Of a stretch of 63,861 bases of DNA, positions 2,161-2,227 are shown piece by piece. The notes under the pieces are model-generated. The model was given only the letters and a program-made list of their open reading frames with translations, was not told where the DNA came from and did not search any database. This DNA is from a virus. The position numbers and the translations under genes are program-made. Location: IMG/VR virus record IMGVR_UViG_3300003323_000369, positions 1 through 63,861 of that record; one strand, given 5' to 3'. The stretch's first letter is position 1. Each line of letters opens with the position of its first letter.

Positions 2161-2178
2161 GATCGCTCCTATACGATC
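2161..2178 (-). promoter_or_regulatory. RBS-presenting hairpin of the 2155 gene
   Basis: Minus strand: GATCG, loop TATAGGAG, CGATC. The Shine-Dalgarno sequence is the last five loop bases and is 10 bases from the ATG. Bases 2176-2178 of the 5' strand are also needed for stem I of the ribozyme at 2176-2227, so the two structures exclude each other. Confidence 0.65.
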
Positions 2179-2227
2179 CAGACCCCGTTAGGGGTTTCGC
2201 CTGAGTCTCACAGGCTCGTCAGTGGAT
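2176..2227 (-). ncRNA. Hammerhead ribozyme, type I topology
   Basis: Read on the minus strand from 2227: stem I ATCCA; core CTGACGA (2222-2216); stem II GCCTG / CAGGC with loop TGAGACT; core GAA (2198-2196); stem III ACCCC / GGGGT with loop TAAC; C17 at 2181; stem I return TGGAT (2180-2176). All invariant hammerhead positions are present (C3 U4 G5 A6, G8 A9, G12 A13 A14, the A15.1-U16.1 pair, H17 = C). Each stem is 5 bp and fully paired. Predicted self-cleavage is between 2181 and 2180. It begins right after the stop codon of the 2228-2584 gene and lies in the transcript upstream of the 2155 gene. Core motif and topology are seen; activity is inferred. Confidence 0.88.

Follow-up and report, generated by a model that had tools for sequence, protein, structure and literature searches.

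A type I hammerhead ribozyme between a stop codon and the next ribosome-binding site in a phage operon

Hammerhead ribozymes of all three types were found in bacteria by Perreault et al. in 2011, frequently within prophages and as arrays of several copies, and the same authors located hammerheads between phage genes and proposed that they process long phage transcripts (PMC3088659). Tandem prophage hammerheads cleave in vitro, a trio from Agrobacterium undergoes cleavage upon expression in E. coli, and in the haloviruses HF1 and HF2 a transcript 5' end was mapped no more than 3 nt from the cleavage site of the phage hammerhead (PMC3088659). A review from 2017 still described the role of phage hammerheads as an open question (PMC6155905).

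Here, we analysed a 63,861-nt stretch of viral DNA (hereafter, the window), in which a 52-nt type I hammerhead ribozyme occupies positions 2176-2227 of the minus strand, as indicated by its sequence, its fold, a motif scan and a covariance model built without the window. The element shares with the type I hammerheads of Perreault et al. the core, the topology, the position between genes and the proposed processing of mRNA; those hammerheads often occur several to a genome, whereas the window record carries one copy, at a new locus (PMC3088659). Since phage hammerheads with a proposed role in mRNA processing have been described (PMC3088659), the kind of element is already known, and the locus itself is new. 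Like the window element, the HHphage hammerhead of HF1 and HF2 lies shortly upstream of a start codon, there that of a phage early gene, but its core departs from consensus and its activity was studied in high salt, whereas the core in the window is canonical (PMC3088659). Two features of the window element, the fusion of the stop codon with stem I and the predicted hairpin around the Shine-Dalgarno sequence (SD), were not found described in the accessible part of PMC3088659, where the term 'stop codon' does not occur. In the accessible literature, a scope outside which most subscription journals fall, we found neither the stop-codon fusion, nor a hairpin competing for stem I (anti-stem I hairpin), nor the Rfam blind spot reported below, and priority is not claimed.

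Sequence, structure and covariance models

Read along the minus strand from 2227 to 2176, the element comprises the 5' strand of stem I, AUCCA (2223-2227); the catalytic core CUGACGA, spanning C3 to A9 with C at N7 (2216-2222); stem II, GCCUG/CAGGC (2215-2211/2203-2199), closed by the 7-nt loop UGAGACU of the phage UGARANN loop class (2199-2215 in all); the core GAA, corresponding to G12, A13 and A14 (2196-2198); stem III, ACCCC/GGGGU (2195-2191/2186-2182), with the closing pair A15.1-U16.1 and a UAAC loop (2182-2195 in all); C17 (2181); and the 3' strand of stem I, UGGAU (2176-2180). By homology to other hammerheads, the cut is predicted between C17 (2181) and U1.1 (2180), so that the downstream mRNA would start with UGGAU and carry a 5'-OH. 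Every position of the hammerhead consensus as given in PMC3088659 (C3 U4 G5 A6 N7 G8 A9, G12 A13 A14, A15.1-U16.1 and H17) is matched, and three helices of five perfect pairs each surround the core. The open helix is stem I and stems II and III are closed by loops, which defines type I. An isolated 63-mer was predicted to fold into exactly the hammerhead structure, with a free energy that was unremarkable (z = -1.2). The original prediction, made from the letters of this DNA, had named the invariant positions, their order, the stem lengths, the register and the cut site, all of which lie on the minus strand where it placed them; the sequence and the fold, which it had proposed as a check, also bear out its type I topology with both ends in stem I. 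The type I reading is supported in every detail that can be tested on sequence.

The motif scan returned a single hammerhead site in the whole window, whereas 60 shuffled versions yielded none, and neither the scan nor the covariance model detected a second hammerhead in the 63,861 nt. In a sequence comparison of the contact between stem I and loop II, the loop UGAGACU and the 5' flank AA agreed with the phage class, but the 3' flank did not: the bases directly 3' of stem I are CG, compared with the usual A or AA in relatives, and the contact may therefore be weaker.

A covariance model constructed from 20 relatives of equal length, with the window excluded, scored the element at 72.1 bits (E 6.7e-25), the runner-up place in the window reaching 11 bits. 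By contrast, Rfam at its gathering cut-offs reported nothing at the ribozyme. Hammerhead_1 (RF00163) gave no match in the window record at an E-value of 0.001, and with an E-value cut-off Hammerhead_3 (RF00008) produced a mis-registered type III alignment of 29 bits, against a gathering cut-off of 48.5. Both models share the catalytic core with the element, and RF00008 matches stem II and the core; as a different permutation, however, it mispairs stems I and III. We rejected a type III identity, as the score is below gathering, the outer helix is mispaired and the open helix is stem I. Among the Rfam models, RAGATH-1-hammerhead (RF03152) alone was seen to align in the correct type I register, covering exactly 2176-2227 at 20.6 bits (E 0.12, cut-off 56.3 bits); in this model stem III is longer and the stem II loop differs.

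The original prediction had regarded a missing covariance-model match as evidence against a hammerhead. Such a match is indeed missing from Rfam at gathering, but the model built from relatives recovers the element strongly, and across 26 related loci Rfam at gathering recognised as type I none of the 41 type I hammerheads that we counted there, although it did find two type II hammerheads and seven tRNAs. The absence of an Rfam match thus reflects the models rather than the element. Rfam has a blind spot for the type I hammerheads of this phage class, and such ribozymes are therefore probably under-annotated in public genomes.

Placement in the operon and among relatives

PHROGs matches in the window include terminase, portal, major head protein, an Erf-like recombinase and integrase, in keeping with the phage origin first proposed for the operon, and the window is the virus record of a tailed, probably temperate phage. 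On the minus strand, an orphan gene of 118 aa (2228-2584) ends in a UAA stop codon (2228-2230) that adjoins stem I, its A residues being the conserved 5' flank of the ribozyme. Downstream of the element lie the SD, AGGAG (2170-2166), and the ATG (2155-2153) of an orphan gene of 109 aa (1826-2155), which confirms the predicted position between a stop codon and the next ribosome-binding site. Four more ORFs of the same operon overlap or abut (266-1823). Computed from the longest-ORF starts, the other joints of the operon measure +2, -35, -74 and -64 nt, compared with +72 nt at the ribozyme, which occupies the only real gap of a tight operon. Intrinsic terminators and sigma-70 promoters were no more frequent at the element than in shuffled sequences, and the minus strand at that position lacked both.

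No close relative of the phage was present in a set of 50,697 phage records. The flanking 118-aa and 109-aa proteins have no relatives in viral contigs, isolated phages, Pfam or PHROGs, nor in the nine records related by head protein, and no DNA similarity to isolated phages was detected for the ribozyme region or a 20-kb structural stretch. Among isolated phages, a recognisable head protein was limited to those infecting Tunturiibacter (25% identity).

Relatives of the ribozyme were abundant. A pattern for the exact form of stem III matched at least 119 stretches in viral contigs, and a pattern for the stem II loop class matched at least 120 stretches in viral contigs and 86 in prokaryote genomes. 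A motif scan of 322 sequences (2.75 Mb) yielded 400 sites, representing 357 distinct type I hammerheads, and one site in shuffled sequence; most of the 322 loci had been fetched by hammerhead patterns, so that only the shuffled count informs on chance. The 357 hammerheads, from the viral and prokaryotic contigs scanned, lie mostly between co-directional genes; 56 loci hold two or more copies, with a maximum of eight. Nine phage records encode a major head protein closely related to that of the window; eight of these show no hammerhead, although several are fragments, and the ninth carries one at a different locus.

In a gapless alignment of relatives, 12 of the 15 pairs, among them pairs of stem I, showed changes on both sides, and 97.7% of cells were paired compared with 70.7% after shuffling; the other three pairs adjoin the core or were fixed by the search pattern. 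Because the alignment rows came from a scan that requires pairing, covariation is tested more fairly by the loop-class pattern, which is silent on stem I and on most of stem III beyond its core end and does not constrain three of the five stem II pairs. Among the matches listed for it, 185 of 192 distinct sequences pair the whole of stem II, and in 175 stems I and III are closed as well. A core varying freely among relatives, named at the outset as a sign against the ribozyme, was not seen: the core is kept, though relatives were fetched with core patterns.

Upstream stop and downstream start codons were present in the sense orientation in 217 of the 306 relatives with enough flank, compared with 37 in the antisense control, and placement between a stop codon and a ribosome-binding site, as in the window, is the commonest arrangement. 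The start codon follows the cleavage site by a median of 27 nt (25 nt in the window). In 222 dereplicated cases, the upstream stop adjoins stem I in 96 and is the core UGA (U4-G5-A6) in 42; the others lie in loop II (16), within stem I (12), detached upstream (54) or elsewhere inside the element (2). The upstream stop codon is thus usually built from ribozyme nucleotides. This overlap is partly mechanical, because any reading frame entering a hammerhead may encounter a UGA in the core or in the loop, and the class with abutting stops is more telling. An A at position -1 of stem I was found in 46 of 53 relatives with an abutting stop, in 42 of 50 with the stop elsewhere and in 23 of 24 in which no stop was found. 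Since the A is kept regardless of the stop, it is a need of the ribozyme, probably as the stem I side of the loop II contact, and phages reuse this conserved A as the end of UAA, the arrangement also present in the window. The sequence, structure, conservation and placement of the element are matters of observation. Stop-codon fusion and spacing before start codons argue for gene-by-gene processing of mRNA and suggest direct tests, and the window element illustrates how neatly such ribozymes fit around phage stop and start signals.

Predicted cleavage and competing readings

From these features we infer cleavage, processing in vivo and an effect on expression: very likely, the type I hammerhead, transcribed within a polycistronic phage mRNA, cuts in cis between C17 (2181) and U (2180) soon after synthesis and uncouples the two halves of the operon. 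The upstream message would retain its intact stop codon and end in the folded ribozyme with a 2',3'-cyclic phosphate, and the downstream message would begin with a 5'-OH, its ATG following after just 25 nt. Such a cut would probably serve to uncouple the stability and translation of the two halves, and the freed strand of stem I may refold as a hairpin around the SD, hindering religation and possibly tuning translation. Our confidence is not higher mainly because of competing folds in the native context. With 30 nt of upstream and 40 nt of downstream flank, the nearest-neighbour model, which ignores tertiary contacts, favours another structure by 6.4 kcal/mol, a gap worse than that of 90% of relatives (median 1.5). 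This preference could change with co-transcriptional folding, with the presence of ribosomes on the upstream gene and with tertiary contacts.

The hairpin raises an alternative in which the element serves mainly as a translation switch: stem I would be paired before cleavage, its 3' strand would enter the SD hairpin after cleavage or upon failure of stem I, and cleavage would determine how strongly the 109-aa gene is translated. The predicted downstream product starts UGGAUCGUAUAGGAGCGAUCAAAACAUG, and positions 2178-2161 of the minus strand can form GAUCGU(AUAGGA)GCGAUC (-7.3 kcal/mol), a hairpin that recruits part of the stem I 3' strand and has most of the SD inside it. Only 0.3-0.5% of shuffled sequences, and 0.3% of those preserving stem I, reach this energy; it ranks only fifth of the 57 start regions in the window, however, four others being more stable. 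In 33 of 236 dereplicated relatives, the 3' strand of stem I can form a strong helix with the 25 nt that follow, compared with 15.4 (sd 3.5) in swapped and 18.3 (sd 3.2) in shuffled controls, but with one ribozyme per contig the excess is weaker (18 versus 11.8), and the signal therefore comes largely from multi-copy phages such as L143, L287 and L024. In L143, copies that differ in stem I sequence retain matching hairpins. In most such relatives, the hairpin precedes the SD rather than enclosing it. We regard the anti-stem I hairpin as genuine but confined to a minority; it would aid product release and cap the new 5' end with a terminal hairpin, and its SD-enclosing form in the window is a hypothesis drawn from folding. 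A role mainly as a translation switch is, on this balance, unlikely.

Somewhat further in doubt is the reading in which the hammerhead has little or no effect in its native transcript, misfolded or covered by ribosomes, and is a passenger on phage cassettes. The competing folds in context, with a gap of 6.4-8.2 kcal/mol, and the patchy occurrence among near relatives are consistent with this, but, in a phage that evolves fast, no core nucleotide and none of the 15 pairs has been lost, and the element is placed as it most often is among hundreds of relatives. Equally doubtful is a more elaborate proposal of our own, in which ribozyme and start region would act as one switch: stem I and the SD hairpin would compete for shared bases, the upstream ribosome terminating on the fused stop would couple cleavage to upstream translation, and the cut would set downstream translation, the minority anti-stem I hairpins being the same device.

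Religation of the ends of the cleavage we favour into spliced or circular RNA is very improbable. Ligation by hammerheads is established chemistry and paired hammerheads elsewhere yield circular RNAs (PMC7761336), but the window contains a single hammerhead and hence no excisable unit, and Perreault et al. sought such products and detected none (accessible part of PMC3088659). Chance resemblance, to which only the lack of an Rfam match above cut-off lends anything, has already been refuted by the covariance-model search, in agreement with the shuffled-sequence counts given above.

Other hammerheads in phages, archaea and bacteria

Several other loci deserve description. A phage record (G003) whose major head protein is 82% identical to that of the window carries another type I hammerhead (L332:497-547, minus strand), in frame within a 152-aa ORF; the 3' strand of its stem I, GGGAGG, is the SD of the next ATG, which predicted cleavage would release. 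Three loci (L233, L013 and L169) hold six to eight distinct type I hammerheads each, and in a Patescibacteria MAG (JAHCSE010000023.1; L287 and L269) a type I array is mixed with two type II hammerheads (L287, 5314-5383 and 6479-6550). Contigs of Nitrosotalea and other Thaumarchaeota (L237, L242, L246, L272, L281, L285, L297, L302, L304 and others), including an assembled chromosome (L297), have a conserved type I hammerhead directly before an SD and start codon, with stem I formed by UCCC/GGGA. In many Legionella genomes (L241, L251, L256, L264, L274, L305, L321 and others), type I hammerheads are followed by a conserved stretch resembling AAGCCACTTCATTCCCTAA, possibly forming with it a mobile or regulatory unit.

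Weak blastn matches in isolated phages were set aside as relatives of the window element: that in an Erwinia phage is a different hairpin with a T-run, and those in Streptomyces and Rhodobacter phages resemble type II hammerheads. The latter two, in Streptomyces phage Janus (L334:778-880) and Rhodobacter phage RcRudolph (L335:795-860), are unannotated and, read by eye, appear to be type II hammerheads; both phages are cultured, which would make experiments easier.
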